A stretch of DNA of 64,000 nucleotides. Source: Natronorubrum tibetense GA33 (lineage in GTDB: Archaea > Halobacteriota > Halobacteria > Halobacteriales > Natrialbaceae). Positions 2,213-20,800 of this stretch are shown here, piece by piece. The stretch spans positions 62,001 to 126,000 of the forward strand of contig NZ_KB913018.1 of assembly GCF_000383975.1 (NCBI RefSeq), read 5' to 3'. Below the pieces are notes generated by a model. It was not told where the DNA came from. It ran no database searches and saw only the letters and a program-made list of their open reading frames with translations. The position numbers and the translations under genes are program-made. Positions within the stretch are counted from its first letter, which is position 1. Each line of letters opens with the position of its first letter.

Positions 2213-3388
2213 ATGGATATCAGTTCTGCAATAGTTCTTGCAGCTGGCGAAGGTCAGCGGCTTCGACCACTGACAACAAACCGGCCAAAGCCAATGCTTT
2301 CTGCCGGCCCAAAACCGATTCTCGAGCACGTTTTCGACGAGTTAATTGATGCAGGCGTAACCGACATCACTGTCGTTGTTGGTTACCAACGAAATCGGGT
2401 TCAATCTCATTTCGGGCCTACCTATCGTAATGTTCCACTCACATATGTGATTCAGGACAAACAGCTCGGTAGCGGGCACGCGCTGCTCATGGCTGAATCC
2501 GAAATTGACGAGCCAACGCTCGTGGTCTACGGCGACCAGCTTATTGACAAGCAAATCATTCGTGATGTCGCTACGCACCACGATTCAGCAAGCGCAACGC
2601 TTGGACTCGTTCAACAGTCGGACGTCACAAAGTACGGCGGCGTTTTGCGGACCGACGATGGCTACGTCACTGAAATTATTGAGAAGCCACATGACGACCG
2701 AAATTACCACCTCAATGCAGGTGTCTACGTGTTTGAGCCGAAGATTGTCGATGCTATCCGAACGACTGATTCACAGGCAGGAGAGCACTCACTTGTTGAT
2801 GGCCTCGCAACTCTCATTGAGGAGGGGGCGACTGTCCAAAGCGTTGTCTCTGATGGTGTCTGGGTCGATGCAACGTACCCGTGGGACCTCCTCGAGATAG
2901 CGGACGATCTTTTCGAGAGCCGCAATGAAGTTGAGAGCCAGATCGCACCCAGCGCATCAGTACATGATGATGCGACGATTATCGAACCGGTCGTCGTTGA
3001 GCCAGACTGCGTCATCGGACCAGGCGCCGTTGTGGGACCGAATGTTTGCCTTGGTGAGAACGTTACAGTCGAGGCGAACGCAGCGGTCAGACATTCCGTC
3101 ATCGATGCCGATACTCGTATCGGGACAAACGCAACGTTGATAGATTGTGTAACTGGCCGGGGCGTACACGTCGGCCCAGCATCAACCGTTGTTGGCGGTC
3201 CCGGAGATGTTGAAGTCGGCAATCGAGTCCACCGAAACGAACAGCTTGGAGCTGTACTCGCCGATCGAGTTCATGACGAAGGTGGCGTCACTTACGCTCC
3301 AGGAACGATCGTCGGTGCTGATGCGATTATTCACGCTGGCTCGACTGTCGATGGGACAATTGAAAACGATATAGAGGTGCGTGCCTAA
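2213..3388 (+). CDS. glmU: GlmU-type bifunctional sugar-1-phosphate nucleotidylyltransferase/acetyltransferase
   Basis: A 391-residue cytosolic enzyme. Residues 1-230 form a nucleotidyltransferase domain with the loop LAAGEGQRLRPLTTNRPKPM (G-x-G-x-R-L-x-P-x-T-x-x-x-PKPM). Residues 245-391 form a left-handed beta-helix built from hexapeptide repeats (for example VVEPDCVIGPGAVVG). This architecture makes GlcN-1-P into UDP-GlcNAc by acetylation and uridylylation. Its stop TAA shares one base with the ATG of glmS, so the two are translationally coupled, and GlmS supplies the upstream GlcN-6-P. UDP-GlcNAc feeds surface glycan and protein glycosylation. A TATA-like CTATATCTA about 25-30 bases before the ATG suggests a leaderless transcript. 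Exact substrate preference (Glc versus GlcN) cannot be read from the sequence. Confidence 0.9.
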   Translation: MDISSAIVLAAGEGQRLRPLTTNRPKPMLSAGPKPILEHVFDELIDAGVTDITVVVGYQRNRVQSHFGPTYRNVPLTYVIQDKQLGSGHALLMAESEIDEPTLVVYGDQLIDKQIIRDVATHHDSASATLGLVQQSDVTKYGGVLRTDDGYVTEIIEKPHDDRNYHLNAGVYVFEPKIVDAIRTTDSQAGEHSLVDGLATLIEEGATVQSVVSDGVWVDATYPWDLLEIADDLFESRNEVESQIAPSASVHDDATIIEPVVVEPDCVIGPGAVVGPNVCLGENVTVEANAAVRHSVIDADTRIGTNATLIDCVTGRGVHVGPASTVVGGPGDVEVGNRVHRNEQLGAVLADRVHDEGGVTYAPGTIVGADAIIHAGSTVDGTIENDIEVRA

Positions 3389-5190
3389 TGTGTGGCATCA
3401 TCGGTTACGTCGGGACCGAACGCGGTGACGATGCCCTCGAGGTCTTGCTTGGTGGGCTGTCACAGCTCGAATACCGTGGGTATGATTCGGCAGGTGTTGC
3501 ATTGGCAGATGGAGGAATCGATGTCCACAAACGTGAGGGTGAACTTTCGGCACTGAAATCTGCCCTTCCGATGGATCGATTCGGCGGTGAAACACTCGGG
3601 ATCGGCCATACTCGCTGGAGTACCCATGGACCACCTTCTGACGTTAATTCACATCCACATACAGATACGGACGGACAGGTTGCTGTCGTCCATAACGGCA
3701 TCATCGAGAACTATCAACAGCTGCGTGACGATCTAACGGATGCTGGAATCGAGTTCCAGAGTGACACCGACACAGAGGTTGTTCCGCATCTGATCGCCCA
3801 GTATCGCGACGAAGGGCTCGACCATGAGGCTGCGTTCCGTGCGGCGATCGATCGACTCGAGGGAAGTTACGCGATCGCTGCCGTCTTCGATGGAAGAGAG
3901 GCAGTGTATGCAGTGCGCAATGAGTCGCCGCTCGTCCTCGGCGTTGCCGATAATGGATACTATCTTGGGAGTGATGTCCCGGCGTTCATCGAGTACACTG
4001 ATCAGGTAATCTATCTCGAGGACGGTCAGTTTGCCAGACTCACGCCAACCGAACTCGTTGTCACTGATGAGAACGGTGACAAAATCGACACGTCGATCAA
4101 GACGATCAACTGGGATCCAGAAGATGCGGGGAAAAGCGGGTACGACCACTACATGCTCAAAGAGATCAACGAACAACCCACAGCACTTCGAGAGTGCTTC
4201 CGTGGCCGACTTGATGAACTCACTGGGCGCGTCAAACTCTCCGAACTCGGAAATCTCGAGCCAAATGGAATCGTTACGTTTGTCGCGTGTGGAACGTCGT
4301 ATCACGCTGCGATGGTGGGTACGCGGCTACTCCAGGAGCGTGGCATCCCTGCACAGGCGTTTCTGGCGAGCGAGTTCAATTTGGATACAGTTCCAATTAA
4401 TCCGGAGTCGGTCGTCGTCGGCGTTACCCAGAGCGGCGAGACAGCCGATACAATGCGTGCCCTTCGAGAGGCAAACAGCGTCGGTGCAACAACGGTTGCC
4501 GTAACAAACGTCGTTGGGAGCTCTGCAGCTCGTGAGACGGATGAAGTCCTGTATATCCGTGCTGGCCCCGAGATCAGCGTCGCTGCAACGAAAACCTTCG
4601 CAAGCCAGCAGGCTGCGTTGACGATGCTTGCGACAGTGTTGAGCGGCCAGCGCTCCCGCGAACTGGTCCAGGAGCTCCGTGCAGTTCCCGATCAGATCCA
4701 GTCGGTGTTGGATACCTCCTCAGCACGAGAGATAGCTGAGACGTACCACGGCTCGGATGCCTACTTTTTCATCGGTCGTGGCTATCACTACCCTGTTGCA
4801 CTCGAGGGCGCTTTGAAAATGAAAGAGATCACCTATACACACGCGGAAGGCTTTGCCGCCGGTGAACTCAAACACGGGCCGCTCGCGTTGGTGTCTGCAG
4901 ACACTCCTGTCTTTGCGATCGTTACCGGCGACGGACGACTCGCTGAGAAGACGATCGGCAATATCAAAGAGGTCGAAGCTCGTGGGACGCCCGTCGTCGC
5001 CGTAACCGATGGTCAGTCAAACGTTGAACGGTACGCTGATCACGTCCTCGAGGTGCCGGCATCGTCGTCTGTCACCAGTTCAATCGTCGCGAACGTACAA
5101 TTGCAACTGGTGGCCTACTGGACTGCAAATCAACTTGGACGGTCGATAGACAAGCCACGCAATCTGGCGAAAAGCGTTACCGTGGAGTGA
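3388..5190 (+). CDS. glmS: Glutamine--fructose-6-phosphate transaminase (isomerizing)
   Basis: A 600-residue enzyme of full family length that converts fructose-6-phosphate and glutamine to glucosamine-6-phosphate, the entry step of amino-sugar synthesis. The N-terminal MCGIIGYVG carries the Cys nucleophile exposed after Met removal, and the GATase type II domain spans about residues 1-220. Two SIS sugar-isomerase domains follow: the first has VACGTSYHAAMVG and VTQSGETADTMRALREA, the second GRGYHYPVALEGALKMKE. The C-terminal DKPRNLAKSVTVE is the conserved active-site tail. It is the second gene of the glmU-glmS operon. A geneless stretch of 780 bases follows, holding an inverted repeat, a hairpin and an RNA-like element. 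Confidence 0.96.
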   Translation: MCGIIGYVGTERGDDALEVLLGGLSQLEYRGYDSAGVALADGGIDVHKREGELSALKSALPMDRFGGETLGIGHTRWSTHGPPSDVNSHPHTDTDGQVAVVHNGIIENYQQLRDDLTDAGIEFQSDTDTEVVPHLIAQYRDEGLDHEAAFRAAIDRLEGSYAIAAVFDGREAVYAVRNESPLVLGVADNGYYLGSDVPAFIEYTDQVIYLEDGQFARLTPTELVVTDENGDKIDTSIKTINWDPEDAGKSGYDHYMLKEINEQPTALRECFRGRLDELTGRVKLSELGNLEPNGIVTFVACGTSYHAAMVGTRLLQERGIPAQAFLASEFNLDTVPINPESVVVGVTQSGETADTMRALREANSVGATTVAVTNVVGSSAARETDEVLYIRAGPEISVAATKTFASQQAALTMLATVLSGQRSRELVQELRAVPDQIQSVLDTSSAREIAETYHGSDAYFFIGRGYHYPVALEGALKMKEITYTHAEGFAAGELKHGPLALVSADTPVFAIVTGDGRLAEKTIGNIKEVEARGTPVVAVTDGQSNVERYADHVLEVPASSSVTSSIVANVQLQLVAYWTANQLGRSIDKPRNLAKSVTVE

Positions 5191-5256
5191 ATTATCTTGT
5201 CGAAGTGATTGTTTGAATGGGTTTAAACTCAGAGCTCGTACCTGCCGGTACGCCCT

Positions 5257-5349
5257 ATAAAATGGGACGGAAGAATTGACGCTGGTGATCGTCAGTAACG
5301 ATTCGAGCGTGCGTGCACTCTGATCGTCCCCTGTTCCGTCCCATTTTAT
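5257..5349. repeat. 16-bp perfect inverted repeat enclosing 61 bases
   Basis: ATAAAATGGGACGGAA at 5257-5272 is exactly matched by its reverse complement at 5334-5349. The 61-base interior contains no reading frame and carries a direct repeat TGATCGTC. The size and perfect ends suit a small MITE-like element or a terminator-like foldback after glmS. No target-site duplication is obvious. No second copy was noticed in the window. Confidence 0.6.
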
Positions 5350-5469
5350 GATTCAGCGCCAACTTATTTACCACTGTTGGTTATACCTTTTGGAGAATAC
5401 TGATAACAATACAGACCTCACTACGTCCCCTATGATACTAACATTTACTCAGATATTTTCTATTTAGAA

Positions 5470-5492
5470 GACGTCGGAGGTGTGCCGACGTC
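5470..5492. other. Perfect 8-bp hairpin in the glmS downstream region
   Basis: GACGTCGG (5470-5477) and CCGACGTC (5485-5492) can pair across a seven-base loop. The site lies between the 16-bp inverted repeat and the RNA-like element in a stretch without genes. It has no T-run after it, so a terminator role is not supported. It could be a protein-binding palindrome. Confidence 0.4.
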
Positions 5493-5576
5493 GGAGCTCC
5501 CTATCCGCTAGTGATGTCTCATCGGATGGGCAGTCAAAGATCGAGTGTCGGCTGGTGTGGTCGACATGTGACTGAT

Positions 5577-5661
5577 CTTCAACTGGGCGGGTAGTTTACG
5601 AATGTCTATCGTCGGAGGGAAGCTGTCGGCAACGACAGTACTCCGTACCCGCCAACTGAAG
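5577..5661 (-). ncRNA. Candidate structured RNA, copy 1
   Basis: On the minus strand the segment folds as an outer stem (GGCGGGTA 5653-5646 with TACCCGCC 5593-5586, extended by CTTCA/TGAAG), a middle stem CGGAG/CTCCG and an apical stem CTGTCG-TTGC-CGACAG. The 3' strand holds a possible small hairpin ACGA/TCGT whose loop contains GACAT. A second element at 15891-15957 aligns over about 65 bases and keeps the same stems. The minus strand is favoured because copy 2 has a U-G wobble that would be a mismatch on the other strand. An AT-rich CTTAAAAG lies roughly 45-50 bases before the outer stem on this strand. The locus sits between the ends of glmS and the ABC operon. Identity with a known RNA class was not recognised. 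Confidence 0.5.
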
Positions 5662-5970
5662 CTTCTTATTTCCAATGGTTAAACTTATTGGCCGGGTGAC
5701 TTTTAAGCGATACTCGAAAGTTAGCGATCAGTTGAGGTTTCCGCAAAGCTAACTATTATATCGTGTCGAATGCTACCTGCTCACACAGAGGTGGTTCATA
5801 CGAAACAACATTTTCCGGTTGCAGTACTCACTGACAACCGATCATATCCAACCTAATCTTGTTAGAACCCACCACGAGATTAGTGATTTCTCAACCTTTC
5901 CACCCGTTTTGTATATCGGTTTTTGTACGAATTGTACTTAGGCCAGCACTTGTCCCTAAAACGATAGCTA

Positions 5971-7236
5971 TCAGCGGTTCGAACCCAAGTCCGACGTCGA
6001 CGGGAGACGCCAGCCAACGACCAGTGCTGCAATCGACCCAATCCCGATAGCAAGAATGCCACTACCAGCGATCACCATCGGAGAGATGATAACTAACCCG
6101 TCAAACCCAACAATGGATTCAACAATAGTATTCAAGAGATAGGCGAACGGCACCGTCAGTGTAACACCGAAGAGCCAGCCAGCTAGCCCTAAGAAGAACC
6201 CTTGAGCGATGACAACGCCAGCAATCGTTGGACGAGCAATTCCCAGCGCAGTAAGTGTCGCTAACTCGGCCCGATGGTGGTAGACAAAAAGGGCTAACAT
6301 ACTGACCGTCAACACTGTTCCCGTGATGAGCGCAACGCCGACGAGCAGTCCGGCACCCACGAGGACTGTTGCTTGCTCACCAACGACAGACTCGAGTTGC
6401 TCCTGATTCGTCCGTACCTCGTACTCGGGGTATTCCTCTTGAAGATTGGCTTGGACGGCTTCGGGATTCGCTTCATCCTCGAGCGTGATCGTGATCATCG
6501 ACGCTGGATCGGTGCCGGTTGAGCCGGTAATAGTCTGGAGTTCGCTCAATCTGACAGTGACTGTCGGCGTTCCGAGGAACTCAGAGAACGTAGAGGAGAT
6601 CCCGACGACGGTGAACTCGTTGTCGTCGGCAGCCGACGTCGTTCCCCCGAGGTGAACCGTATCGTTGATTGAGAGATCGTACGCGTCAGCGGTTCGTTCG
6701 TCGATGACGACTTCGTGCCCCATCTCCCCACCGAACGATCCGTTTGCATAGTGGTCATCGTTCCCGCTAAAGCCCCTCCCGTCTGAAATTGAAACGGCTC
6801 CTCCCGCGCCCCCACCTCCGGTGACGCCTGTCCCAATTATCGTGTCGTATGAAGTGCCGTTCTCGCTGATATAGACAGTCTGAAACGACATTGACACGGC
6901 ATTACTGACCTCCTCGTGGTCGTCTATCTGCGCGGCTACTTCGTGGGAGTCGTGAAGCGTATTTTCGAAGCCACCACCACCTGCCGGCGTCAGTCCAACG
7001 GGACCGCCTGTCACCCAGAGATCACGGTCAGCCGAATCGAATTGCTGTTCGCCAACCTCCATGACGCCGAGACCGCCACCAGCGAGCAACGTCATCGCGA
7101 GAACTGCAACAGCGATACCGACAATGGCCACAGCTGTACGGGTTCGATCGTGACGGAGTTGGGTTACCGCGAGCCCACCAGTCGCCCACAGCTTCCGTAG
7201 CAGCCGGATAAACGCATTACTCACGGATTCGCTCAC
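5971..7236 (-). CDS. ABC transporter permease, MacB/FtsX type (second permease)
   Basis: About 421 residues with the MacB/FtsX layout: a cytoplasmic N-terminus, one membrane segment (TAVAIVGIAVAVLAMTLLAGG), a large external domain of about 230 residues rich in Gly/Asp/Thr, then three membrane segments near the C-terminus (VGVALITGTVLTVSMLALFV, GVVIAQGFFLGLAGWLFG, GSGILAIGIGSIAALVVGW). It overlaps the preceding permease gene by 20 bases. GTG at 7236 directly abuts a GGAGG, so the in-frame GTG at 7224, about 11 bases after it, may be the true start. This family couples ATP hydrolysis to work outside the membrane (export or lipoprotein release) rather than to uptake. It is the last gene of the apparent four-gene operon. 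Confidence 0.88.
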   Translation of the reverse strand: MSESVSNAFIRLLRKLWATGGLAVTQLRHDRTRTAVAIVGIAVAVLAMTLLAGGGLGVMEVGEQQFDSADRDLWVTGGPVGLTPAGGGGFENTLHDSHEVAAQIDDHEEVSNAVSMSFQTVYISENGTSYDTIIGTGVTGGGGAGGAVSISDGRGFSGNDDHYANGSFGGEMGHEVVIDERTADAYDLSINDTVHLGGTTSAADDNEFTVVGISSTFSEFLGTPTVTVRLSELQTITGSTGTDPASMITITLEDEANPEAVQANLQEEYPEYEVRTNQEQLESVVGEQATVLVGAGLLVGVALITGTVLTVSMLALFVYHHRAELATLTALGIARPTIAGVVIAQGFFLGLAGWLFGVTLTVPFAYLLNTIVESIVGFDGLVIISPMVIAGSGILAIGIGSIAALVVGWRLPSTSDLGSNR

Positions 7237-8506
7237 CTCCGATATCGAGCCGCCAGAGTGCAAATCCAAGGAAGGGTATCGTGATGAGGCCGATCACCAA
7301 CGCGACGGCGAACCCATACACGAGGAATACCGGATGCCCAACTGCTACTGCACCAACTGACGAGATCTGTTCAGCCGCGAAATTGAGCAGCCGAATACCG
7401 AGAAGTCCGATGACTCCGCCAAGGAGCCCCCCGATGATCGTTACGATGATGGTCTGAAGCGCATACATCGTTAGTTGAGACCGAAGTCCGATCCCCATCG
7501 CATGCAGTGATGCCAACTGCGAACGGTTCCCGATCAGTTCGAAAACCATCGTCGTTCCGATAAACAGCGTCCCCACGAAAATCGAGACGAGTATTGCCGT
7601 CAGGCTCAACGCCAGTGCGAGGTCGGAGTCGAGCACCTGCTGCGTAGTCATTTCAGAACTCGAGTACACTTCTGCCTCGTCATAGAGTCCCTCAAAATCG
7701 TCTGCGGCCGATGGAGAACTCGTTTGGACGAGGAACTGATCCGCTTGATCGTGTTCAGCTGCCCCGGTAAGTGTCTGCAGTTCGCTCAGTTGCATTACCG
7801 CGATCGGTGTCGTACCAAGGACACTCCCCGCGTCTCCCTCGTCGACATCGATAGTGGTGAACGACTGCGCCCCCCCACCACCGGATACCGACACGTCGGA
7901 TCCCTCTTCGGCCTCGAGCAATGTCGCAGCGCCATTCGATAGAACGACTTCGTCGGTTGCTGTCCCATTGTAGCTCCCGTTTTCGTAGTAGGGGTCGCCA
8001 GGCGTCATCGCTGCAGTCGACAGTCCCATTACTGACTCGCTAGCTGAATCCGGAATAACACCGAGGGCTACGACATACTCAGAAGCACCCGAGTCGGATT
8101 CTATCTGCACCACTTGCATCAACAGTGGCGTTGAGGACTCAACGTGTTCGTACTCGAGCAGTCGGTCGTTCGCGGTATGGACGCTCCCGAACTGTGGGTC
8201 CCCTGCTGCTACAAGCGCCGAACTGTCGCTCTCCGATTCTGGAACGATCCAGTACTCGCTGTCGCTGCCAGCGCCAGTCATAGGCGACGCAATGCCGACG
8301 GCAAGACCGGTCACACTCACCAACAACGCGATTGCCATTGCGACACCGATGACGCTCATCCATGTTCGCTTTGGCGCCGTCTCAAGGCCTTGTGAACGGA
8401 CCCATTTCCATGCAAGGCCGATTCGTCCACGCCACCGACGAAGCCGTCTGACTGTCCCCGTTACATTTGTTGGCGACGTTGTGTCGCTGGGATCGTTCGG
8501 CGCCAT
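7217..8506 (-). CDS. ABC transporter permease, MacB/FtsX type (first permease)
   Basis: A 429-residue paralogue of the next permease with the same one-plus-three membrane layout: MSVIGVAMAIALLVSVTGLA near residue 50, an external domain to about residue 290, then LALALSLTAILVSIFVGTLF, a central segment around residues 335-365 and a C-terminal one ending FLGFALWRLDIGG. The conserved coupling-region pattern LASLHAMGIGLRSQL precedes the third segment, as in FtsX-domain permeases. Its ATG overlaps the ATPase stop by one base (TAATG), indicating coupled translation. The two non-identical permeases suggest a heterodimeric membrane part served by a single ATPase. Confidence 0.9.
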   Translation of the reverse strand: MAPNDPSDTTSPTNVTGTVRRLRRWRGRIGLAWKWVRSQGLETAPKRTWMSVIGVAMAIALLVSVTGLAVGIASPMTGAGSDSEYWIVPESESDSSALVAAGDPQFGSVHTANDRLLEYEHVESSTPLLMQVVQIESDSGASEYVVALGVIPDSASESVMGLSTAAMTPGDPYYENGSYNGTATDEVVLSNGAATLLEAEEGSDVSVSGGGGAQSFTTIDVDEGDAGSVLGTTPIAVMQLSELQTLTGAAEHDQADQFLVQTSSPSAADDFEGLYDEAEVYSSSEMTTQQVLDSDLALALSLTAILVSIFVGTLFIGTTMVFELIGNRSQLASLHAMGIGLRSQLTMYALQTIIVTIIGGLLGGVIGLLGIRLLNFAAEQISSVGAVAVGHPVFLVYGFAVALVIGLITIPFLGFALWRLDIGGERIRE

Positions 8507-9330
8507 TACTCCGGTTTGGCACCCACTTCTGCTCGTTCGACATCATATCGCTGGCCGTCTCGAAGACGAATCACTCTGTCCGCCGCCTCCAGCGTTTGTC
8601 GGTCGTGCGACGCTACCACGACTGCTCGATCTGTGGCTACTGTCTTGAGTTCGTCAAGCACTCGACTGCCAGCTTCCCTATCGAGCTCTCCGGTCGGTTC
8701 ATCAGCGATCACGAGCGGTGGTTCGGTAATGAGTGCCCGTGCGATAGCAACTCGTTGTTGTTCGCCACCGCTGAGCTGTCCCGGTTTATGTTCGAGACGG
8801 TCACCGAGACCAACGCGGTCGAGGACTGTCGCCGCCCGGTTCCGCCGTTCTCGCTTCGAGACGCCGATCTCGAGCAACGGAAGCGCAACGTTTGTCCGCG
8901 CTGAGAACGCCTCGAGGAGATGGAATCGCTGAAAGACGATCCCCACGTTGTGCAATCGATGCGATCGAAGAGCGCGGGGCGACAACGATGCGAGATCGGT
9001 CCCGTCGAAAATCACTGTACCCTGATTGGGCTCTTCAAGTCCCGCTAACAGATGCAACAGCGTCGACTTTCCACTACCACTGGGACCGGCGAGTCCAACA
9101 ATCTCACCTGGGCGGATGGAGATAGAGACCTCCTCGAGAGCCGTTACCGTCGGTCGATCATCGTCTGTTGACCGCCACGGAAGAATCTTTGAACTACTCG
9201 TGGGTGTGCCGCGCGTGTAGACTTTCGAAAGGGAATTGCCGGTGATGACCGGTTCAGGTAACGTGTCTGATCGAGATCGTCGGTCTGCCGAGGGGTTCGA
9301 TCGTTGGGTCGTGGGTTCGTCTGCGTTCAT
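8506..9330 (-). CDS. ABC transporter ATPase, MacB/LolD type
   Basis: A 274-residue nucleotide-binding subunit. Walker A is GPSGSGKST (about residue 100), the Q-loop lies in VGIVFQRFHLLEAFSARTNV, the signature is LSGGEQQRVAIARAL, Walker B is PPLVIADEPTGELD and the H-loop is VVVASHDRQTLEAADRV. The TGELD ending of Walker B is typical of the LolD/MacB branch. An unusual N-terminal extension of about 60 polar residues precedes the domain, and an insertion (TPTSSSKILPWRSTDDDRP) sits between the first strand and the A-loop region. It lies 98 bases after the surface-protein gene and overlaps the first permease by one base. Confidence 0.95.
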   Translation of the reverse strand: MNADEPTTQRSNPSADRRSRSDTLPEPVITGNSLSKVYTRGTPTSSSKILPWRSTDDDRPTVTALEEVSISIRPGEIVGLAGPSGSGKSTLLHLLAGLEEPNQGTVIFDGTDLASLSPRALRSHRLHNVGIVFQRFHLLEAFSARTNVALPLLEIGVSKRERRNRAATVLDRVGLGDRLEHKPGQLSGGEQQRVAIARALITEPPLVIADEPTGELDREAGSRVLDELKTVATDRAVVVASHDRQTLEAADRVIRLRDGQRYDVERAEVGAKPE

Positions 9331-9428
9331 GGGAGGGCTAGATTGAAGATGTTCTGTTACCCGCCATCGGATCCGACTGAATGTAGATTGCCGAAGACGT
9401 GGTTGGCGTGTTCACGTCGGTTGGGAGT

Positions 9429-11402
9429 TCAGTTTTGCGCGGGGAGGAACCGGATCGCGAACAGGGAAATCGCGATAGCGAGGAGTGCAGCTAGAGGCCC
9501 GAAGCCAGGGATCGGGAAGGCACTATCGTCGTCTTCGCCCGGTTCGATCACAGTGAGTGTGCCCGCATCGGCGTCGTTGATTGCGATTTCGTATTCGCCC
9601 GCTTCGTCGAACTGTTTGGTGAACTCAACGGTCGTCTCGTCGCCAGCGAAGATTTGGACGGTCTCCTCGTCAACGACCTCGCCGTCGACGAGTAACTCAG
9701 CTGTGAACGTGCCCGTTTCGTCGCCGGTGTTCGTGACAGTCGCCGAGGCGTCGACTGAATCACCGATTTCGATCTCAGTGTCGCTTAGCGTTGCATCCGT
9801 TACGTCGAACGTTGCTTCAGTCTCGTCTTCTTTGTCTCCAACAGTGACCGTGCCGGCAACGGCGTCGTTGATTGCGATTTCATACTCGCCAGCTTCGTTG
9901 AACGAGTGCGTGAACGTGATCGTGTCTTTTTCGCCAGGTCCAACACGTACGATCTGGTCGTCGACGACCTCGCCATCGACGAGTAACTCAGCGATGAACG
10001 GTCCAGTACCTTCACCGACGTTCTGGAGTTTCGCAGAGACTTCAAATGAGTCGCCGGGTGCGATCTTCGCGTCACTCAGCGTTGCATCGCTCACTCGGTA
10101 ATCTGGTTCCTCTGGTGGACCAGGGCTAGGTATTCCGGGCCCGCCTGTATCATCGTCCTCGTCTGCAAGTTCCATCACATCGGTCGATGTCTCGAACTCG
10201 CCGTCGGAATCGGCTGCGACGTGGATCCAGCGATAATCGTCATGTTCGCTCCAGTTGCCGTACGTTTCAACTGTCAGGTTTGCCTTTGGCTCATCAGTCT
10301 GGATCGCCGTCATAGAACCAGTGAGGTATGTATCGCCTGCCTTCGTCTCGACGTCGTCAGTCAACGTCACATCTCCACCTATGTCCAGCATCGCGTGCAA
10401 CTCATCACGGAGTTGCTCGAGTTCTGTCTCACCCGTAGTTCGTTGGTGGTCCGTTTCGTTTTGGAATGAAAAGACTCCGTTCAATCCAACGACATCACGT
10501 TCGATGACGATATCATCCATGGAGAACTCCGAACTCGGCTCAGTGGTCGCGTTAATAACCGTATCCGTATTCGTGAACTCGTCTTCGTCGTAGAGGACGA
10601 CTCCGTGTGCGATATCGTCGCCTTCGAGTCCAGTTTCCGCCTCGAACGTTGCATTCTCGCCGGGTTCGATCTCAGACGGTGCATCAACGGTAGAGGAATC
10701 ACTGTGAACGAGGAATCCTTCAACACCGACGATCGTCGAATCACCCTGTGGATCCAACTCGTTGTTATTGAGTAACGAACTGTCTGTATCCCCAGTCGAA
10801 ACGATTGCGACGTACTGGCCAGCCTCATCCGTTTCATACTCAATCGAGGACAGTTCACCATTCTTGTCAAAGCTTGTATCAGCGACCTCCTCGAAGCTCA
10901 TATTCTCGTTGAGCGCCTCGAGTTCTTCCTCACTAAGTGAAGATGGAATCTCGAAGTTGGCGAGGTCTGCGGATGGTTCCGCCTGTCCAACTATTACTGT
11001 CGCTGGCTCTTTACTCAAGTTCTCTGTTGATACACCATCCTTGTCCTCAAAGTCCAGCCGGATGTTTTCCGACGTATTGAACATGCCAAGAATCTGACGA
11101 TCAGCGGGGTGAGGCCCGCTGTTATCTGGTGGACTAATTTGGAACCCTTGGTTGCGAACGGTGTATTCTGCTGCATCCAGGTCTGTCCGGAGCGGAAGAA
11201 CGGAGCGATCCCAGATAGAGACGTTTTCATGACCTGATCCATGTACTTGGTCTTCTGGAAGTTCCGGGTCAGTTGGTGATGAAACTGAGAGTGCGGGAGA
11301 CCCCGTTTCCGCCGAAGATGATAACGCTGCACCTGCCACGCCGGCGAATGGCGCGAGGAGCAGCAGTATCGTCATCCCGACCACAACGATTTGTTTATAC
11401 AT
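9429..11402 (-). CDS. PGF-anchored surface protein with two CARDB domains, first gene of the ABC operon
   Basis: A 657-residue exported protein. It has a Sec-type signal peptide (KQIVVVGMTILLLLAPFAGVAGA), an unrecognised N-terminal region of about 400 residues, a Gly/Pro hinge (GGPGIPSPGPPEEPD), then two CARDB-like beta domains of about 85 residues each (both with ATVxNTGDE- or AKLQNVGEG-type strands and a shared AGEYEIAINDA ending). The C-terminus is PIPGFGPLAALLAIAISLF plus a short basic-free tail, matching the PGF-CTERM signal processed by archaeosortase for lipid anchoring. Several N-x-S/T sites suggest glycosylation. It is followed on the same strand by the ABC genes, so it may be the external partner of that transporter; this is inference from order and spacing. 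Confidence 0.85.
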   Translation of the reverse strand: MYKQIVVVGMTILLLLAPFAGVAGAALSSSAETGSPALSVSSPTDPELPEDQVHGSGHENVSIWDRSVLPLRTDLDAAEYTVRNQGFQISPPDNSGPHPADRQILGMFNTSENIRLDFEDKDGVSTENLSKEPATVIVGQAEPSADLANFEIPSSLSEEELEALNENMSFEEVADTSFDKNGELSSIEYETDEAGQYVAIVSTGDTDSSLLNNNELDPQGDSTIVGVEGFLVHSDSSTVDAPSEIEPGENATFEAETGLEGDDIAHGVVLYDEDEFTNTDTVINATTEPSSEFSMDDIVIERDVVGLNGVFSFQNETDHQRTTGETELEQLRDELHAMLDIGGDVTLTDDVETKAGDTYLTGSMTAIQTDEPKANLTVETYGNWSEHDDYRWIHVAADSDGEFETSTDVMELADEDDDTGGPGIPSPGPPEEPDYRVSDATLSDAKIAPGDSFEVSAKLQNVGEGTGPFIAELLVDGEVVDDQIVRVGPGEKDTITFTHSFNEAGEYEIAINDAVAGTVTVGDKEDETEATFDVTDATLSDTEIEIGDSVDASATVTNTGDETGTFTAELLVDGEVVDEETVQIFAGDETTVEFTKQFDEAGEYEIAINDADAGTLTVIEPGEDDDSAFPIPGFGPLAALLAIAISLFAIRFLPAQN

Positions 11403-11648
11403 AGCTGATGATATTCACAGAACCAGTTATCTCTTGCTCTTCACTATAGCTCTCAAAAGATAGAAATAAATTGAACGAAAACGAGTTTCAGGTCCATACT
11501 TTATGGACATGATCGACATAATACTGACAGTAATTCGGACGAGTGCTATAGATGTCAACAACCCCGACCACAAGGGGCCAGGGTATCCGATTTGGCCACT
11601 GATGAATCATAATACAAGAATATATGGCTCAGTAACAGAGATACAATC

Positions 11649-12710
11649 ATGATGAAAAACCCTATATCTTCTCGATCAGGTATTTCCGCTCTCGTCATTG
11701 TTGTGGGGATATTGCTCCTCCTTTCGAGTGCGATCGTCGTCGCTGCCGACACAGCGGATGGTGAGCTGTCGGTGGCTGGATCAGTCGAGACACCGACGGA
11801 AACGGTCACCACCGACGAACTCGACTCCGAGTTTGAGGTTGATGCGTTCGCGACTCTCAGTGCCGGTGATTCTCTCGACGCAGATATCGCGCTGTCTGAT
11901 GACAGCGCCTTTGATGTCTATCTCTACGATAATGATGGGCAAAACGTCGATCGTGTCGGCGGGACGGGCTCTGACTCTGTGACGTTCGACACGGATTCGC
12001 TCAAGTCGGGAACCTACGTACTCGCGTTGTACGTCGACGGGAATTACATCGACATTCACCCTGTCATCATTACTGGCTACGATGTCACGGTCGATGCCCC
12101 TAGCGAGGTGTCATCGGATGACGAATCGATGCTTGTGTCGGCCGATGTCACTCCGACAGCGCTCGATATCGATCCCGCTAGCGTCGAAATTGCTGTCTGG
12201 GACGACGACACCGTTCTCCGTAAGACAGCTGAAGATCGCGGTGACGGTCAGTACGAGGCTACGTTCCCGATGAGTGACCTTGAGGAAGGTTCGTATTCTG
12301 TCTCAGCCGTTGCCCAAGGAACGGACACAGTCAATGGTGAACGAGAAGCGCTCGGGATCAGTGACAGTGATGCCCTTACTGTCTCAGACTCACAAGACGA
12401 TAGCAGTGATTTCGATGACGGAACAGACGACGAATTGAACGAGTCAGATGATGAACCCGACGAGTCGACCGACGAAACCGATGAATCAGATGATGAAGTG
12501 GCTGACGAGTCAGAACCAGGCGAATCCAATGATACCGACGATGCTAACGACTCGAGCGACGACACTAACGGGGTCCAGCAACCGAACCTCGAGGATGATG
12601 ACGATACTGAGACGGACACCGATGACTCAGATGCCGTACCACTCGCCGTCGTGCCGGTAGTTGCGGTGGCCGCCGTGCTCGTTGGAGTGGTCGTTCGGGT
12701 GCGATACTAG
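11649..12710 (+). CDS. Surface protein with acidic stalk and C-terminal membrane anchor
   Basis: A 353-residue exported protein divergently transcribed from the surface-protein/ABC operon, with about 250 bases of shared upstream DNA. Residues 10-36 form the signal peptide (ALVIVVGILLLLSSAIVVAA). Two beta-rich domains follow (about 40-150 and 150-250). A stalk of almost only Asp, Glu, Ser, Thr and Asn (about 255-325) leads to a C-terminal membrane segment (PLAVVPVVAVAAVLVGVVV) and a short basic tail RVRY. The PGF motif is absent, so it is probably held by the membrane helix itself. No enzymatic motif was seen. Confidence 0.8.
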   Translation: MMKNPISSRSGISALVIVVGILLLLSSAIVVAADTADGELSVAGSVETPTETVTTDELDSEFEVDAFATLSAGDSLDADIALSDDSAFDVYLYDNDGQNVDRVGGTGSDSVTFDTDSLKSGTYVLALYVDGNYIDIHPVIITGYDVTVDAPSEVSSDDESMLVSADVTPTALDIDPASVEIAVWDDDTVLRKTAEDRGDGQYEATFPMSDLEEGSYSVSAVAQGTDTVNGEREALGISDSDALTVSDSQDDSSDFDDGTDDELNESDDEPDESTDETDESDDEVADESEPGESNDTDDANDSSDDTNGVQQPNLEDDDDTETDTDDSDAVPLAVVPVVAVAAVLVGVVVRVRY

Positions 12711-12870
12711 AGACCGCTGATTTTCCCCTCATGACGACTTGTCACGACTTCTCCTGTTCGAAGGACAGTATTTCTGACTCTGTTGAAATCCTTGTCTGGT
12801 GACTGGTTTTAGGAGTCGTGCTGAATACAGGGTGAGAATGTGGCAGATATTACACGTTGAACAGGCGCAA

Positions 12871-12903
12871 TACCACGGCCTTCAGGCGGAGGGGGATGTC
12901 AAT
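12871..12903 (+). repeat. Degenerate TnpB-element right-end hairpin
   Basis: CCACGGCCTTCAGGCGGAGG followed by GGGATGTCAAT resembles the right-end signature (hairpin then GGATGTCAA) seen many times in this window. The stem is imperfect, and nothing else of the element is recognisable in the 260 bases between the flanking genes. It lies about 70 bases upstream of the lipoprotein gene. Confidence 0.45.
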
Positions 12904-12973
12904 CCGAACACGTAGGGTGCTGTGAAGTCATTGCACCAGAAAGTACTTGCACAAAACCAAACAAATAATTGAT

Positions 12974-13741
12974 ATGAAACGCCGAAATCTCCTCACAGCA
13001 GTCCCTATGGCGACAGCAGCACTTGCTGGCTGTCTAAGTACTAATAACGAGGACAATACCGGTGAAGTTACATACGAACAGTGTACAAACCGCGTCGTAT
13101 CTCCCGACGACTTACCCGAACTCGCCAAGGATGAAGCAAATACCGCCATTGAGACAGGGAAGTATGAATCTGAAAGCGGCTTACTCCTCCCCGACGTCAT
13201 CGACGTTGGCAACGCCTTTCTCAGTGTGAACGATGATGATGACACTGTTTACTATGAGATGGTCGTCACCGAACAAGAGAATATAAAACGCTTAGAACTC
13301 GAAAAAAGCGCCCCGTCAGCGAACCCCGTCAGCATGGTAATGGGTATGGAAAATCCAGATTATAACGAGAGGATAGAGGCTTACGTATACATAGAGAACG
13401 AAGGCGAGGCGCTCGTTGACGAACCGGTCACACTTGACCCTGATGAACGTGTGCGATTGAACGGCAACAGGGAGTACCGGTACGGGAAGTACCGAGCAAA
13501 AATCACCGCTGAGATCGACGGAAGTGAAGTTTCTGACGAGATTGAGTGGACCGTGAGCAACCACATAATGCAACCTGAACTGTACATCAGTGATGCTCCA
13601 GAATTAATTACTATCTATTCGACCGAAGAGTACAGACATTCGGAAGGATTTGGATCGGCATGTCGCCGGAGTGACACAGGTGAACTCGTAGCGGGACAAA
13701 ACAGATCCGGAGAAATTGTAGACGGTCCGTCGGAGTCATAA
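12974..13741 (+). CDS. Tat-type lipoprotein of unknown function
   Basis: A 255-residue secreted lipoprotein. The N-terminus MKRRNLLTAVPMATAALAGC has an RR pair and a lipobox (ALAGC) for lipid attachment, typical of haloarchaeal Tat lipoproteins. The ATG at 12974 is chosen because it starts directly before the RR motif; the frame is open nine codons further upstream. The mature part is acidic, with a beta-sandwich-like second half (YVYIENEGEALVDEPVTLDPD, YRYGKYRAKITAEIDGSEVS) that may be an Ig-like domain. A short Cys pair (ECYS is absent; EQCTN and SACRR are present) is the only notable residue feature. The family was not recognised. Confidence 0.78.
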   Translation: MKRRNLLTAVPMATAALAGCLSTNNEDNTGEVTYEQCTNRVVSPDDLPELAKDEANTAIETGKYESESGLLLPDVIDVGNAFLSVNDDDDTVYYEMVVTEQENIKRLELEKSAPSANPVSMVMGMENPDYNERIEAYVYIENEGEALVDEPVTLDPDERVRLNGNREYRYGKYRAKITAEIDGSEVSDEIEWTVSNHIMQPELYISDAPELITIYSTEEYRHSEGFGSACRRSDTGELVAGQNRSGEIVDGPSES

Positions 13742-13872
13742 TTCGCTCGAGCTGTACAAGAGCAGGCAAAATTCGCACCTTTAAATTGTTGTGTGGATTA
13801 TTAATATAGTATAAAAGACACACTCTGGCGTCTGATTTCTATAACTATTAACCGATTATACAAAGCAAGGAG

Positions 13873-14371
13873 AATACCTGCGGCTTTAGCCGCAGGATGA
13901 ATCCGACAACACGGATACAATCCACGCTTCGATGGCCAGTTCGAGATTTCTAATCCGTATTTTCAAGTGGCAGGCCATCCTCCGTAGAAGTAGGAATCAG
14001 GCTAGAACAGAGTGATTCTGCTTAGTCCTACGATGGCGGCCTGCCCGCCCCAAGCAATCAAACAGTAATCGGAACCAGTCGATGACCGGCGAACCCTCAC
14101 AGGGTTCGACCGGAGTTGACTGCTGTAAGCACGAAGAAAGTAACTCCGAGTCCGTCGAAATCTACCGGACCCCCCGAGGCAAAAACAACTCTGGGAGTCC
14201 GAATATGATGGAGGATAGGAGTACCGGGGACTTGGCACTCCCAGCAGTCCCACCCGCTACAGTCCGTGAGCATCCCCACGGATTCTCACCGTTCGGATGC
14301 TCGGTAGGACTGCAAACCTGAAATCTCCAACGCTCAGGATTCCTCCGCGTTTACGCGGAGGAGGATGTCAA
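13873..14371 (+). mobile_element. TnpB-element debris bounded by two right-end hairpins
   Basis: A geneless stretch of about 750 bases between the lipoprotein and a membrane-protein gene is mostly element debris. At its left is a perfect hairpin CCTGCGGC-TTTA-GCCGCAGG (13877-13896) followed by ATGAATCCGACA. At its right is a 9-bp hairpin TCCTCCGCG-TTTA-CGCGGAGGA (14341-14362) followed by GGATGTCAA. Both face the plus direction, so this looks like two nested or tandem elements that lost their tnpB frames. The interior contains further short complementary tracts but no credible gene. It may still specify orphan guide-RNA scaffolds. Confidence 0.55.
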
Positions 14372-14489
14372 TCAATGTGGCTCGATTGAAACAGACGAGA
14401 TCGGTTTGTTGCAGCTATTCTCTCTGTTCAGCAAATCGTTTGTTCCAGATTCTGTGGATTTAAACAGAGCCCTTGTTTGACTCGCCCAG

Positions 14490-15002
14490 TTAGTCGATTG
14501 CCGACGTCTCGGTAGGACTATCACGACGACGACTGACTATCCAGACGAGGAGTGCACCACAGCTAGCGACGAGCGCTGGCCAACGGTCGCTACTTAGGTA
14601 CAAATCCCCTGCTGGCGGCCGATACTGGAGAAACGGCCAGAAAACAGTGTAGGCCTCACCGGTGGGTGTCAATAACAGGATATCGAGAATGTGGTGTGAA
14701 AGGACGCCGACTGCGAACAAAGCAAATGCTTGCTTGCGGTGGGCTGGTCCCAACAAGAGCGCACCGAGACCGATCAGGAGTACGGAGCCGACGAAGGTGT
14801 GCAGCGAACTCCACGAAAACGCCACACCAAGTGTTTCTGCGACACGCTCGTCCGGAGCGATAAGCTGAATTTTTACGAGATCGGGGGTGAGCGCACCGAT
14901 CATGACAAGCGTGACGTGTGCCGAACGGAGCGACTCATATCTGATTGAAAGCAGTGTTCCGAGGATGTAGCCGACGAGGACATGCGTTAGGACGTCAGCC
15001 AT
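14490..15002 (-). CDS. Membrane-bound metal-dependent hydrolase family protein (YdjM/DUF457-like)
   Basis: About 170 residues with four to five membrane segments (for example MADVLTHVLVGYILGTLLS, SLHTFVGSVLLIGLGALLLG, QAFALFAVGVLSHHILDILL). Conserved His and Asp residues at the membrane edge (ADVLTH, GALTPDLVK, SSLHTF, LSHHILDILL) fit the YdjM/DUF457 group, named as metal-dependent hydrolases although the activity is poorly defined. ATG at 15002 is preferred because it overlaps the preceding gene's stop by eight bases and starts the conserved ADVLTH block. The alternative start 18 bases upstream would add only MTEVNV. Confidence 0.8.
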   Translation of the reverse strand: MADVLTHVLVGYILGTLLSIRYESLRSAHVTLVMIGALTPDLVKIQLIAPDERVAETLGVAFSWSSLHTFVGSVLLIGLGALLLGPAHRKQAFALFAVGVLSHHILDILLLTPTGEAYTVFWPFLQYRPPAGDLYLSSDRWPALVASCGALLVWIVSRRRDSPTETSAID

Positions 15003-15702
15003 GACGTTCACCTCCGTCAACAGTCGATTTTTCAGGATGCTTGTGGCGGTCTACGGCGGGTCGATCGTCGGTTATGGTGGACTGGCCGTCGTTGTCTTGC
15101 GATTCAGCCACAGCGTCCTGAGTCTGGTTAGGTCGACGCTCAGATTGTGATCGATTGGAGTTCTTCGTCTCTGAATCGTCCCTCCCGCCAAGCCGGCTGC
15201 CGAGTGGCTGCGCTCGCGGCCTGAATGCGAGTGCACTCCGATCGAACCGCCAGTGGTTGATGAATCGCCAGACGACCCAGAGCCCACCCAGTGCTGAGAC
15301 CAGATACATATACTGCGCCTCGGATCCCTCCCGAGTAATCGCCCGCTCGACGACGAGAGCCGAGTCGTCCTCAAGGGTACCAAACGTGTTCACTCGATCG
15401 CCTATCTCGAGTGGAGCGTCGATGTTCCCGGTCGCTGTGTTTACATCGACGAGAACAAACTGCCCGTAGCCGCTGGCGCGTGTCGCAATTACAACTGGGT
15501 CGGTATCAACGACGAATCCGCCGAGGATGACTTGCTCACCCACATATTCCTCGGGTGTCGGCGTCACATCGCTTTCGTCTGGATATGCACCCTCCAGTGG
15601 ATCACCAGTTGTTGTGCCCGCTAGGACTAGACTGCCGGTCAAGAGTGCAACAAGGATGATCCCGGCGAGAATGCGGCCAAATTGGCTATACGGCTCCGTC
15701 AT
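14995..15702 (-). CDS. Membrane protein with external OB-like domain
   Basis: A 235-residue protein with a membrane segment at residues 10-28 (ILAGIILVALLTGSLVLAG), an external domain of about 110 residues, a second segment near 135-152 (MYLVSALGGLWVVWRFI) and a long polar, charged cytoplasmic tail. The external part (GEQVILGGFVVDTDPVVIAT, GQFVLVDVN, GDRVNTFGTLEDDSALVVER) has the strand pattern of an OB-fold. It overlaps the hydrolase-like gene that follows, so the two form an operon and may act together. Haloarchaea commonly carry this pair, but no function is established to my knowledge. Confidence 0.75.
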   Translation of the reverse strand: MTEPYSQFGRILAGIILVALLTGSLVLAGTTTGDPLEGAYPDESDVTPTPEEYVGEQVILGGFVVDTDPVVIATRASGYGQFVLVDVNTATGNIDAPLEIGDRVNTFGTLEDDSALVVERAITREGSEAQYMYLVSALGGLWVVWRFINHWRFDRSALAFRPRAQPLGSRLGGRDDSETKNSNRSQSERRPNQTQDAVAESQDNDGQSTITDDRPAVDRHKHPEKSTVDGGERHG

Positions 15703-15890
15703 CGGTGTTCCTCAATTTGAGGGTGTAGCGACGGCAAATGTCTTCTGATCCGATCGCTACTGGTATCAGGAACATCTTCGTCACAGCTGATTTTGATATG
15801 CATTAGACAACTTGAAAACCGAACGAGGATATTCAGGCGACCGCTGCGGATATCCAACACGCTTATCCAATGGTAATCGAATGCTCTCGA

Positions 15891-15957
15891 TGGCGGGTGA
15901 GTGGACGACTGTCGTCTCGGCAGTTTCCACCGACTGAGACATCGCACCCACCCGCCA
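15891..15957 (+). ncRNA. Candidate structured RNA, copy 2
   Basis: The outer stem is TGGCGGGTG (15891-15899) with CACCCGCCA (15949-15957). The middle stem is GTGGA (15901-15905) with TCCAC (15926-15930). The apical stem is CTGTCG (15909-15914) with CGGCAG (15918-15923), loop TCT, including one T-G wobble, and extendable by A-T and G-T pairs. The 3' strand contains CGACTGAGACATCG, which matches the GACAT block of copy 1. Relative to copy 1, several pairs differ on both sides while pairing is kept. The element lies in a 500-base geneless stretch between a membrane-protein gene and the UPF0175 gene, about 110 bases before a TnpB-element core remnant. Whether it is transcribed is unknown. Confidence 0.5.
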
Positions 15958-16068
15958 CTCTCGGTGATTGAGTTGTCGTCGCGCCAATCGACACTTGATC
16001 GCCTGCTCATTGCCCCCCAGATGAGCTCCACCGCTGGCCCATTGCCAGCGGTTTCAACTGAAGCCGTA

Positions 16069-16128
16069 GCGTGGAGTCCCCTTCCTCAAGGAACGATCGA
16101 AACGTGTGAGTAGTATGGGGTAGTTGAC
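16069..16128 (+). mobile_element. Remnant core of a TnpB-element 3' region (second copy)
   Basis: The sequence aligns without gaps over about 55 bases with the core at 1934-1988: both contain CCTCAAGGA, GAGTAG and GGGGTAGTT-N-AC in the same spacing. The outer CCCC/GGGG pairing is kept, while the inner stem is weaker here. No right-end hairpin or tnpB frame follows. It is a decayed piece of the same element type. Confidence 0.5.
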
Positions 16129-16200
16129 ACGGCGTCAGGAGTTCGATTTCACAGGTCGTTCCGAGGGCAATGAGTGTGGTGGCATCGACGTGAATTGATA

Positions 16201-16503
16201 TTATAACTCGCGTGCGCTGTCAACGTCAGCTGCGAGATCGGCGGGTGGCAGTTGGCTCGTTAGATTCCGTTCGCGGGCGATTTCAAGCCACTCTGCGATG
16301 CTTATCCCGGCGATTCGGGCGGCCTGATTTGTCGATATCTCTCCAGTCTGATACTGCTCGACTGCGAACCGAATCCGGAGATCCGCAAGGCGTTCACGCA
16401 GCGCTTTCCGGATTACCTTGCTCTTGTCCTCGTCAAGTAGCATTGCGACTTCGTTGAGGTTATCTTCGTCCTCGTCGGGAATGCAGGCGCTGATCGATGG
16501 CAT
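16201..16503 (-). CDS. UPF0175-family antitoxin, without a partner toxin
   Basis: A 100-residue protein. Residues 1-45 look like a ribbon-helix-helix segment (EVAMLLDEDKSKVIRKALRE), and residues 50-85 hold the UPF0175 helix-turn-helix (YQTGEISTNQAARIAGISIA, EWLEIARERNL). UPF0175 proteins are usually VapB-type antitoxins placed just before a PIN-domain toxin gene. Here the stop is followed by about 500 bases containing only element debris and an RNA-like element, so the toxin has been lost or the protein acts alone as a regulator. Confidence 0.8.
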   Translation of the reverse strand: MPSISACIPDEDEDNLNEVAMLLDEDKSKVIRKALRERLADLRIRFAVEQYQTGEISTNQAARIAGISIAEWLEIARERNLTSQLPPADLAADVDSAREL

Positions 16504-17851: not shown

Positions 17852-20800
17852 ATGAGGATAATGAGGAGTGCTGTAGTTGCGTGTTTCGCCACGCTCATAC
17901 TATTATGTTTGCTAACAGGTATGGCGGTCGCGGAGACAGCTACTATCGAGACGGATAGTACGAACACAACTGACGGGGATACGATCGTGGTCTCCGGCCA
18001 ACTCACCCTGCCGGACGGTGAGCCGGCGCCTGGCGGGATGGTGTTGGTTATTACCGATAACGGAACGGAGACGATGGATGTCGATGATGACGGGTCATAC
18101 GAGCTGACCCTTCCGGAACAGGACGAGCCGCACGACGTTCAGTACTACCACGATAGCGATTTAGACTTCCCGCATGATGGGGTCGCCGACGTGTATGCAA
18201 TTTCCAGTGTCCCCGGCAACGAGGATACAGAACTCGGGACGACTCAGCTCCCAATGGGCCATCTGGTCGAAGCCACGGTCGTGACCCCGGATGGCGAGCC
18301 GGTGGCTGACGCAGACGTGTCCCTTCAGCACATTAACAAGGCCGCCAACGCGTCGGCCGGCTTCGGCGGGGCGACGAACGACGACGGCGTTTTCTATCCC
18401 CGGGAGCCACCTGGCCTCGAACTGAACGGAACGGTCGAGGTCGAAGTACAACCACCTGAAGACGACAACCGCTTCGTCGAGCAAACCTCCGAACGGACGC
18501 TCGATGTCACCGAGAACAAAACGCCAGAGATCGAACTCGAGCAAAAAGACCTCGTCGCCCAGATCGACACTGAGCCGTCGGCACCAGACGTCAACGAAGA
18601 GATCACGTTCGACGGCACCGAGTCGATCGGTGAGATCAAAGACTACGAGTGGGAGTTCGGTGACGGGGAAAATGACACCGGCGATAACGTCACGCACTCG
18701 TTCGACGAGATCAACACCCACGAGGTCACGTTAACGGTGACCGACGACGAGGGTGAGACGGCAACGACCACCGAGTCGATGTCCGTCGGTGGCCATACCC
18801 TGATCGAACACAGTGATGGCTCCACGACGAGCGGTGATGGAATGTATGCCGACATACCGACGATCCACACGAGCGAGTACGGGGAGGCGATAGATATCGG
18901 TGGCGACGCCGACACGGCGTTCCAGATTCATAACACCGACACCGGTGAGTCGATTACTGTCACGCCCAAGGAGAGCGACGACACCGTCTCGGCCGAGTTC
19001 GTCGACTTCTTCCTGTACGACTCGTCCGGGGCGATCGACCCCGACGAAGATCTGGCTATCTGGGCCCAAGGGGAGGATGGCGATGAAGAAATCCCAGTCG
19101 ACGTGGCCGGTGACCTCGAGATGTTCGAGAATGAGGACACGTTCTCGCCGTACGAGGTGGCACTCGTCGATACCGAACACGATGGGGCGATCGATACGAC
19201 TGATGAACGGTTGATGGGAATCGGCTACGAAGCCGAGTTCGAACAGGACGGTACGGAGGGCGAAGTCAACGTCACGATTCCGCGCGACGACGAGGTCAAC
19301 GAGGAGTGGGACGTGACGTTTGGCGTGTACGGTGAGCATGCTGGCGAGATGCTCGTCGAACAGTCCGTTGCGAACGACGCCGACGCAGACGTGTTCGAGT
19401 TTACCGTCGACGTGAGCGATATCGATGATGGAGAGTACACGTGGGGACTTGACCTCGAGAAAAGCGAACAAGAACCACACGTGCAGTGGCTGTACGGGCA
19501 CGAAGATTTCACCGTTGGTGAGGGTGCGCTCGAGGCGGCGTTTGATGTCGACCCGACCGAACCCGAACTGGGCGAAACGGTGACGTTCGATGCGTCTGCC
19601 TCGAGTGGCGACATCGAAGCCTACGAGTGGACGTTCGGCGATGGAACGGAGAAAACCGGCGAGACGGTCAATCACACGTTCGACGACGTCGATACCCATG
19701 AGGTCGAGTTGACCATCACGGATGCCGACGGAGCCACTGCGACGACCACCGAGTCGGTCTCCGTCGGTGGCCATACCCTGATCGAACACAGTGATGGCTC
19801 CACGACGAGTGGCGATGGAATGTTTGCAGATCAACCAACTATTCGAGTGGGTGAGTATGGGGAGACATTCGAGGTCGGTGGCGAAGCTGACACTGCGTTC
19901 CAAATTCGAAACACGGACACCAATGAATCGGTCACCGTGACACCGGACGATAGTGCAGACACCGTGTCGGCGAACTATCTCGATTTCTCCCTGTACAAGT
20001 CGTCAGGGGAACTCCGAGATGCGGAAGACCGCACTGTCCGGGCAATCGGATCCGAGGACACTGTAGAGCTTCCTGTCACTGTCGAGGGCGACCTCGAGAT
20101 GTTCGAAACTGAGGAGACGTTCTCGACGTACGAGGTAACACTCGTCGATACCGAACATGATGAGCCGATCGATACGACTGATGAACGGCTGATGGGCATC
20201 GGCTACGAAGCCGAGCTCGAACAGGACGGGACTGCTGGCGAAATTAACGTCACGATTCCGCGCGACGACGAGGTCAACGAGGAGTGGAACGTGACGTTTG
20301 GCGTGTACGGTGAGCATGCCGGCGAGACGCTCGTCGAACGGTCCGTCGAGAACGACGCTGACGCTGACGCGTTCGAGTTCACCGTCGATGTGAGGGATAT
20401 CGATGGCGGAGAGTACACGTGGGGGCTTGAGATAGAAAAGCCCGAGCAGGAGCCACATGTGCAGTGGCTGTACGCGTATGAAGGCTTTACCGTTGGTGAG
20501 GGTGAGGTCAACGCAGAGTTCGATGTCGAGCCGACTGAGCCCGAGCTGGGGGAGACGGTGTCATTCGATGCGTCTGCCTCGAGTAGCGACATCGATTCCT
20601 ACGAGTGGACGTTCAGCGATGGAACGGAGAAAACCGGCGAGACGGTCAATCACACGTTCGACGACGTCGATATCTACGAGGTCGAATTGACGGTCATCGA
20701 CTCGAGCGGCGAGACGGCAACAACGACGGAAACGGTATCCGTCGGCGGCCACACGGCGATCGAACACGGGGACGGTGCCGGGACGAGCGGCGATGGAATG

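Follow-up and report, generated by a model that had tools for sequence, protein, structure and literature searches.

What are the two similar segments that lie about 10 kb apart, on opposite strands, in this 64,000-nucleotide stretch of DNA from Natronorubrum tibetense GA33 (the whole stretch is referred to below as the window)? The original prediction described an element of about 65 bases and offered two readings of it, an unrecognised small structured RNA family or the foldback end of a mobile element. The positions, the strands and the shared sequence blocks were confirmed, and both copies were found, as claimed, in intervals free of called genes (5190-5971 around copy 1 and 15702-16201 around copy 2). 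A 110-aa minus-strand ORF running across copy 2, taken from a mechanical list of overlapping ORFs, is probably spurious. The proposed extent held only in part: once copies from related genomes had been aligned together with their flanks, the 65 bases proved to be the P1-P3 domain alone, that is, the front third of an RNA of about 190 nt, which continues for about 120 nt through the hairpins P4 and P5 and a terminator-like P6, with a conserved promoter upstream (Table 1). The first reading is strongly supported by the intergenic position of the copies, by covariation, by the absence of an Rfam match and by a fixed promoter and terminator. We consider it nearly certain that the segments belong to a genuine family of structured RNA genes, with their expression being inferred from sequence alone.

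Table 1. Coordinates of the two RNA copies and their predicted parts in the window.
Feature	Position	Strand	Basis or remark
RNA copy 1 (E1), entire predicted transcript	5464..5653	-	first P1 base to end of T-run
Copy 1 promoter, GGCCAATA (BRE position) and TTTAA (TATA-like)	5679..5693	-	ends 26 nt before P1
Copy 1 P1-P3 domain (element of the original prediction)	5586..5653	-	fold; covariation of P1 and P2
Copy 1 outer stem P1	5653-5646/5593-5586	-	fold, covariation
Copy 1 hairpin P2	5644-5618	-	fold, covariation
Copy 1 GACAT motif, P3 region	5608-5602	-	
Copy 1 long hairpin P4	5532..5585	-	fold; covariation of helices 5-6
Copy 1 hairpin P5, loop TGAGACATCAC	5499..5531	-	fold; covariation of helices 7-8
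Copy 1 terminator-like hairpin P6, CCGACGTC / GACGTCGG, then TCTTCT	5464..5492	-	covariation of helix 9
RNA copy 2 (E2), entire predicted transcript	15892..16056	+	R2 match, MFE
Copy 2 promoter, CAACACGCTTATCC, with TTAT spaced from P1 as in the rest of the family	15855..15868	+	alignment of upstream regions
Copy 2 P1-P3 domain (element of the original prediction)	15892..15956	+	fold
Copy 2 hairpin P5, GCTCAT - TGCCCCCCAG - ATGAGC, all-C loop	16004..16026	+	fold
Copy 2 terminator-like hairpin P6, ACCGCTGGC/GCCAGCGGT, then TTT	16030..16054	+	fold, alignment

Two covariance models were used, R1, built from 11 copies, and R2, built from 37 copies with both window copies left out. The R2 model nevertheless scores copy 1 with 131.1 bits (E 5.5e-35, model positions 1-193) and copy 2 with 80.9 bits (E 4e-21). 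The two copies fold separately into the same layout, and the MFE of each was matched by none of 200 dinucleotide shuffles (z = -5.35 for copy 1 and z = -6.45 for copy 2). Within the window, GGCCAAYANNNTTAW is matched at the promoter of copy 1 alone, and 83 aligned copies have the corresponding boxes at -39 to -25. Copy 2 departs from the family consensus in P5, where the stem is unrelated and the model aligns the region poorly, yet the C-rich loop is kept.

Some other features of the window were recorded as observations in their own right. A glmU-like/glmS pair occupies positions 2213-5190 (+) on a contig of 257 kb, and its GlmS shares no more than 64% identity with relatives from GTDB genomes, very near genomes having been excluded from the comparison. 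Just 3′ of glmS, at 5254-5355 (+), an inverted repeat of about 16 bases (ATAAAATGGGACGGAA ... TTCCGTCCCATTTTAT) surrounds about 70 bases; it resembles a small foldback element, is single-copy in its own genome and is missing from the other nine Natronorubrum genomes. Approximately 520 bases at 13850-14376 are 79-84% identical to plasmid stretches from several genera of haloarchaea, most of which have no gene listed there, and possibly represent a shared mobile or conserved element. The reading frame at 17852-24853 (+) encodes a predicted secreted protein of 2333 aa, in the translation of which repeats of PKD-like and CARDB-like segments, as well as an anchor at the C-terminus, were recognised.

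In regard to the size of the family, a search of the own genome with the 5′ segment of copy 1 returned two further places (E 4e-9 and 4e-8), the own-genome copies being at best 80-84% identical by BLAST, and further copies were found in genomes of the same genus, including G005, G004, G002, G006 and G008. One match from the first genome search (L089) lay inside an ORF and was excluded. Full-length R1 matches were present in all 10 Natronorubrum genomes and in 65 of the 125 genomes that represent the taxonomic family. When 391 genomes sampled across the class were searched, essentially only this family gave matches; three matches outside it, with E-values of 2e-4 to 9e-4, were treated as chance. 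With R2, about 250 matches, a total summed from its result table, were obtained in 59 of the 125 family genomes at E<=1e-4, with up to 14 per genome and six clear copies in the own genome. The carriers comprise all 10 Natronorubrum genomes, Haloterrigena and most Natrinema, and named plasmid records bearing the RNA come from the same three genera. Close pairs of copies, 0.4-1.7 kb apart and on the same strand, were also seen (L214, L211, L152 and L169). Comparison with Rfam release 15 gave no match in the window at gathering thresholds and none, even at E<=1, in five loci with further copies of the RNA, and no published description of the family was found in the open-access literature on non-coding RNAs of Natrinema, Natrialba and Haloterrigena.

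The RNA is built of four domains, P1 enclosing P2 and P3, followed by P4, P5 and P6. Regarding the fold that had been drawn from the two copies, the outer stem (8 pairs), the pairing-preserving character of the differences between the copies and the display of GACAT all held, while the small CGA/TCG hairpin (P3) held in part, being present in a portion of the family alone: a P3 stem of at least 4 pairs occurs in 43% of the family versus about 15% in a shuffled control. In or near P3 lies the conserved unpaired motif YGAGACA(U). The P2 hairpin of the Natronorubrum type is CUGUCG-UUGC-CGACAG, the long P4 hairpin carries (C)AACGUC in its loop, and P5 presents a G-poor, C-rich loop, typically AUUGACACACCACC, with the C-rich motif also given as CACACCACC. 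This loop contains 12% G compared with 26% overall, and its C-rich core is found in 72 of 86 copies. P6 is a terminator-like, GC-rich hairpin followed by T's, with its helix 95% paired and double changes at all eight of its pairs.

The covariance-model search and the covariation analysis suggested with the original prediction have thus been carried out, and they returned many intergenic copies with co-varying stems, so the outcome that would have refuted the RNA family, stems that do not co-vary, was not met. Across 86 aligned copies, changes on both sides were found at 42 of 43 pairs, and double-change cells numbered 376, compared with 112 after column shuffles and 33-81 when the partners were slid by 1-3 positions; as a caveat, this alignment had been fitted to the structure. 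In the first alignment of 11 copies, made with MAFFT, 17 pairs showed double changes versus 8.2, with the structure drawn by eye on that same alignment. On the tree of copies, 98 branches carry a compensatory double change, while random partner columns give 9 on average and 23 at most. The fold is therefore under selection, and the family evolves under purifying selection, with loop sequences staying constant across deep paralogues as the stems co-vary. As a separate observation, a sub-family (L158, L160, L164 and L167) has a P5 loop enlarged by CCA repeats, e.g. AACCACCACCACCACCACTACC, which fits the idea of the C-rich loop as the working part. The complementary motifs GUCAAU in P4 and AUUGAC in P5 occur in many copies, and a kissing contact between them was considered and rejected, as pairing within a molecule was no better than between molecules (250 of 300 permutations were as high).

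Furthermore, the copies share signals expected of a transcription unit. When 83 of them were aligned on the first P1 base, GGCCAAYA was found at -39 to -33 and TTAW at -29 to -26, positions that an archaeal BRE and TATA box occupy for a start at or near P1. The conserved unit extends from the TATA-like box, fixed at -29, to the T-run of the terminator-like hairpin, after which conservation falls to background. In the own genome the promoter motif occurs 10 times, compared with once for a reversed control; three of these occurrences are RNA copies, and some of the others shortly precede protein genes. For instance, GGCCARYA-N3-TTAW stands before a tubulin/CetZ-like reading frame and before another protein gene (L350 and L346, at C1:1300818 and C1:160802), so the box represents a wider promoter class. 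That each copy is a transcription unit with its own promoter and terminator is an inference from these signals, made without transcript data.

With genes called by a home-made caller that misses genes, 83 of 86 copies are intergenic and show no fixed orientation to their neighbours: all four orientation patterns were seen (29/26/14/12), at median distances of 336 and 420 nt. The nearest neighbours span 128 Pfam families, the commonest of which, DUF7692 with seven members, represents one locus common to related Natrinema genomes. No recurrent partner gene emerged from clustering of the ORFs around the 86 copies or from Pfam, PHROGs and PADLOC scans of the 150 nearest neighbours. Secondary replicons of 15 nearly closed genomes hold 2.9 copies per Mb and their chromosomes 0.75, a 3.8-fold difference (P 2e-8) computed with rounded genome sizes. 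No phage record was found to carry the RNA; a scan of IMG/VR with a 17-base hairpin pattern gave only chance matches of P2 size, and in a further, non-exhaustive scan none of the 80 IMG/VR stretches with a loop 14-mer carries the RNA.

The nearest relative of a copy is found in the same genome for 15 of 86 copies and in the same genus for 76 of 86, and copies from a single genome do not cluster on the tree but are dispersed across it. Between related pairs the mean identity is 88% in the RNA, 80% in the promoter and 57-66% in the flanks, and 129 of the 284 pairs lose their homology no more than 5 nt from where the RNA ends. Selection that preserves an intact RNA amid the exchange of its flanks would produce such breaks just as well. 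We interpret the copies as old RNA genes, inherited both vertically and horizontally and kept whole as their surroundings are swapped. It was also noticed that the point where upstream homology ends often coincides with the 3′ end of the RNA (-2 to +7 nt), as in L136/L142, L140/L139, L151/L156 and others. The tRNA-like attachment site that these 3′-end breaks suggested was rejected, as no second copy of the 3′ end was present in the one copy pair tested.

As to function, we regard a small RNA acting in trans by base-pairing as the best explanation, with a probability of roughly 0.5, its transcription, function and targets all being inferred. According to this model, each copy would be a stand-alone gene for a non-coding RNA of about 190 nt, transcribed from its own archaeal promoter with a start at or near the first P1 base and an end at its own terminator-like hairpin. 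The RNA would then act in trans, and its partner would be shared by all paralogues; the constancy of the loops against drifting stems makes a single partner for every copy probable. The P5 loop, being G-poor and C-rich, points to base-pairing with G-rich sites, for example ribosome-binding regions, in the manner of bacterial sRNAs with C-rich loops and of the archaeal sRNA162. The GAGACA loop may assist in this, and redundant, separately placed, plasmid-enriched copies would set dose or timing. Two points weigh against this model. Much haloarchaeal translation is leaderless, which weakens the idea of the ribosome-binding site. Also, the paralogues hardly differ in their loops, a pattern more easily reconciled with a single shared target or a protein partner than with many different mRNA targets.

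The main rival is accordingly a protein partner, with the RNA serving as a scaffold, guide or sponge whose conserved loops bind one RNA-binding protein, in the manner of CsrB-type sponges, 6S RNA or Y RNAs. The conservation of loops across deep paralogues with co-varying stems speaks in its favour, as do the redundancy of the copies and a structure that is elaborate for a simple antisense RNA. On the other hand, no protein gene travels with the RNA and no known protein-binding RNA family matches it, and we place this explanation behind base-pairing. A bolder reading, which we hold to be unlikely, would place the RNA at the core of an undescribed system, either a ribonucleoprotein or one of RNA alone, that belongs to the accessory replicons of Natrialbaceae. 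It might, for instance, serve in defence, in plasmid maintenance or as a toxin-type RNA, with its loops acting on one conserved cellular target; the many divergent copies would then persist since every accessory replicon contributes a copy.

The second reading of the original prediction, the foldback end of a mobile element, and with it a MITE or an integration (att) site, is unsupported and appears very unlikely, although this is judged without data on target-site duplications or from ISfinder. In its favour, the copies are dispersed, 3.8-fold denser on secondary replicons and sometimes near tRNA genes, and the homology of their flanks is often lost exactly where the RNA has its 3′ end. However, the unit runs from promoter to T-run and is not bounded by inverted repeats, the arms of P1 being internal to it. 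Fresh near-identical copies within a genome were not found, in line with the few nearest relatives residing in the same genome; no duplicated 3′ end was seen in G000 or G005 (one copy pair), no transposase or integrase family recurs as nearest neighbour, and the fold evolves by compensatory change.

Likewise, there is very little room for a cis-acting element, be it a leader, riboswitch, attenuator or antisense RNA to a neighbour. Some copies lie 9-100 nt from a gene, e.g. convergent with the DUF7692 gene in several Natrinema, but the four orientations, the unrelated neighbours and the lack of a fixed same-strand place before one gene family contradict it, and every copy has its own terminator-like end. 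A guide RNA of a TnpB/Cas12f-like or CRISPR-derived system is no more plausible. TnpB-like genes lie up to 5 kb from six or seven loci, and single PADLOC matches to Cas12f, Csx1 and Csa3 were obtained among the 150 neighbours, but those six or seven are out of 84 loci, with variable distance and orientation and not in the omega-RNA position at the tnpB 3′ end, and the terminator occupies the place where a guide would be. Finally, an mRNA for a small peptide appears very unlikely, for although 33 of 86 copies have a sense ORF of at least 25 codons, the median ORF has 22 codons, spacer lengths vary by non-multiples of three (9-11 nt between P1 and P2) and the variation follows pairing.

Whichever partner the RNA may have, a family with a defined promoter, fold and conserved loops offers ready targets for deletion, pull-down and structure probing, and with its covariance model about 250 genes that at present lack annotation could be annotated in the searched genomes of the family. 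Its higher density on secondary replicons suggests, tentatively, that it takes part in megaplasmid biology in haloarchaea.

Stand-alone archaeal small RNAs are a known kind, and this family is in no library searched. Trans-acting archaeal RNAs are poorly understood, and the examples compared here are single genes, pairs or a few paralogues. The closest in form are sRNA162 of Methanosarcina mazei and its homologue sRNA171, intergenic RNAs of about 190 nt with several conserved stem-loops, compensatory changes and a narrow taxonomic range, of which sRNA162 acts in trans and masks a ribosome binding site (PMC3510493). The new RNA resembles them in length, intergenic position, conserved stem-loops, compensatory changes between homologues and narrow range. 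However, sRNA162/sRNA171 exist in few copies and their single-stranded linker is both the binding site and the most variable part, whereas the new RNA has conserved loops, up to 14 copies per genome and an unrelated sequence and fold. Sulfolobus solfataricus RNA-257 (1-4) are also paralogous, intergenic and trans-acting, but they derive from the end of the ISC1904 transposase gene and belong to one species (PMC3674436), while the new RNA has no detected transposase sequence, is found in at least three genera and shows strong covariation. In haloarchaea, sRNA132 and s479 of Haloferax volcanii are stand-alone intergenic sRNAs with regulatory roles (PMC6560208, PMC8155600), described as individual RNAs, and their relation to the new family was examined only via Rfam and the class-wide model search. 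Bacterial sRNAs with C-rich loops, such as Staphylococcus IsrR (PMC9410917), direct C-rich unpaired motifs at G-rich ribosome-binding regions; the likeness is hypothetical, as these RNAs are bacterial and have no sequence or structural relation to the new one. Compared with the archaeal RNAs considered here, it is the copy number, the strength of covariation and the replicon bias that set this family apart.
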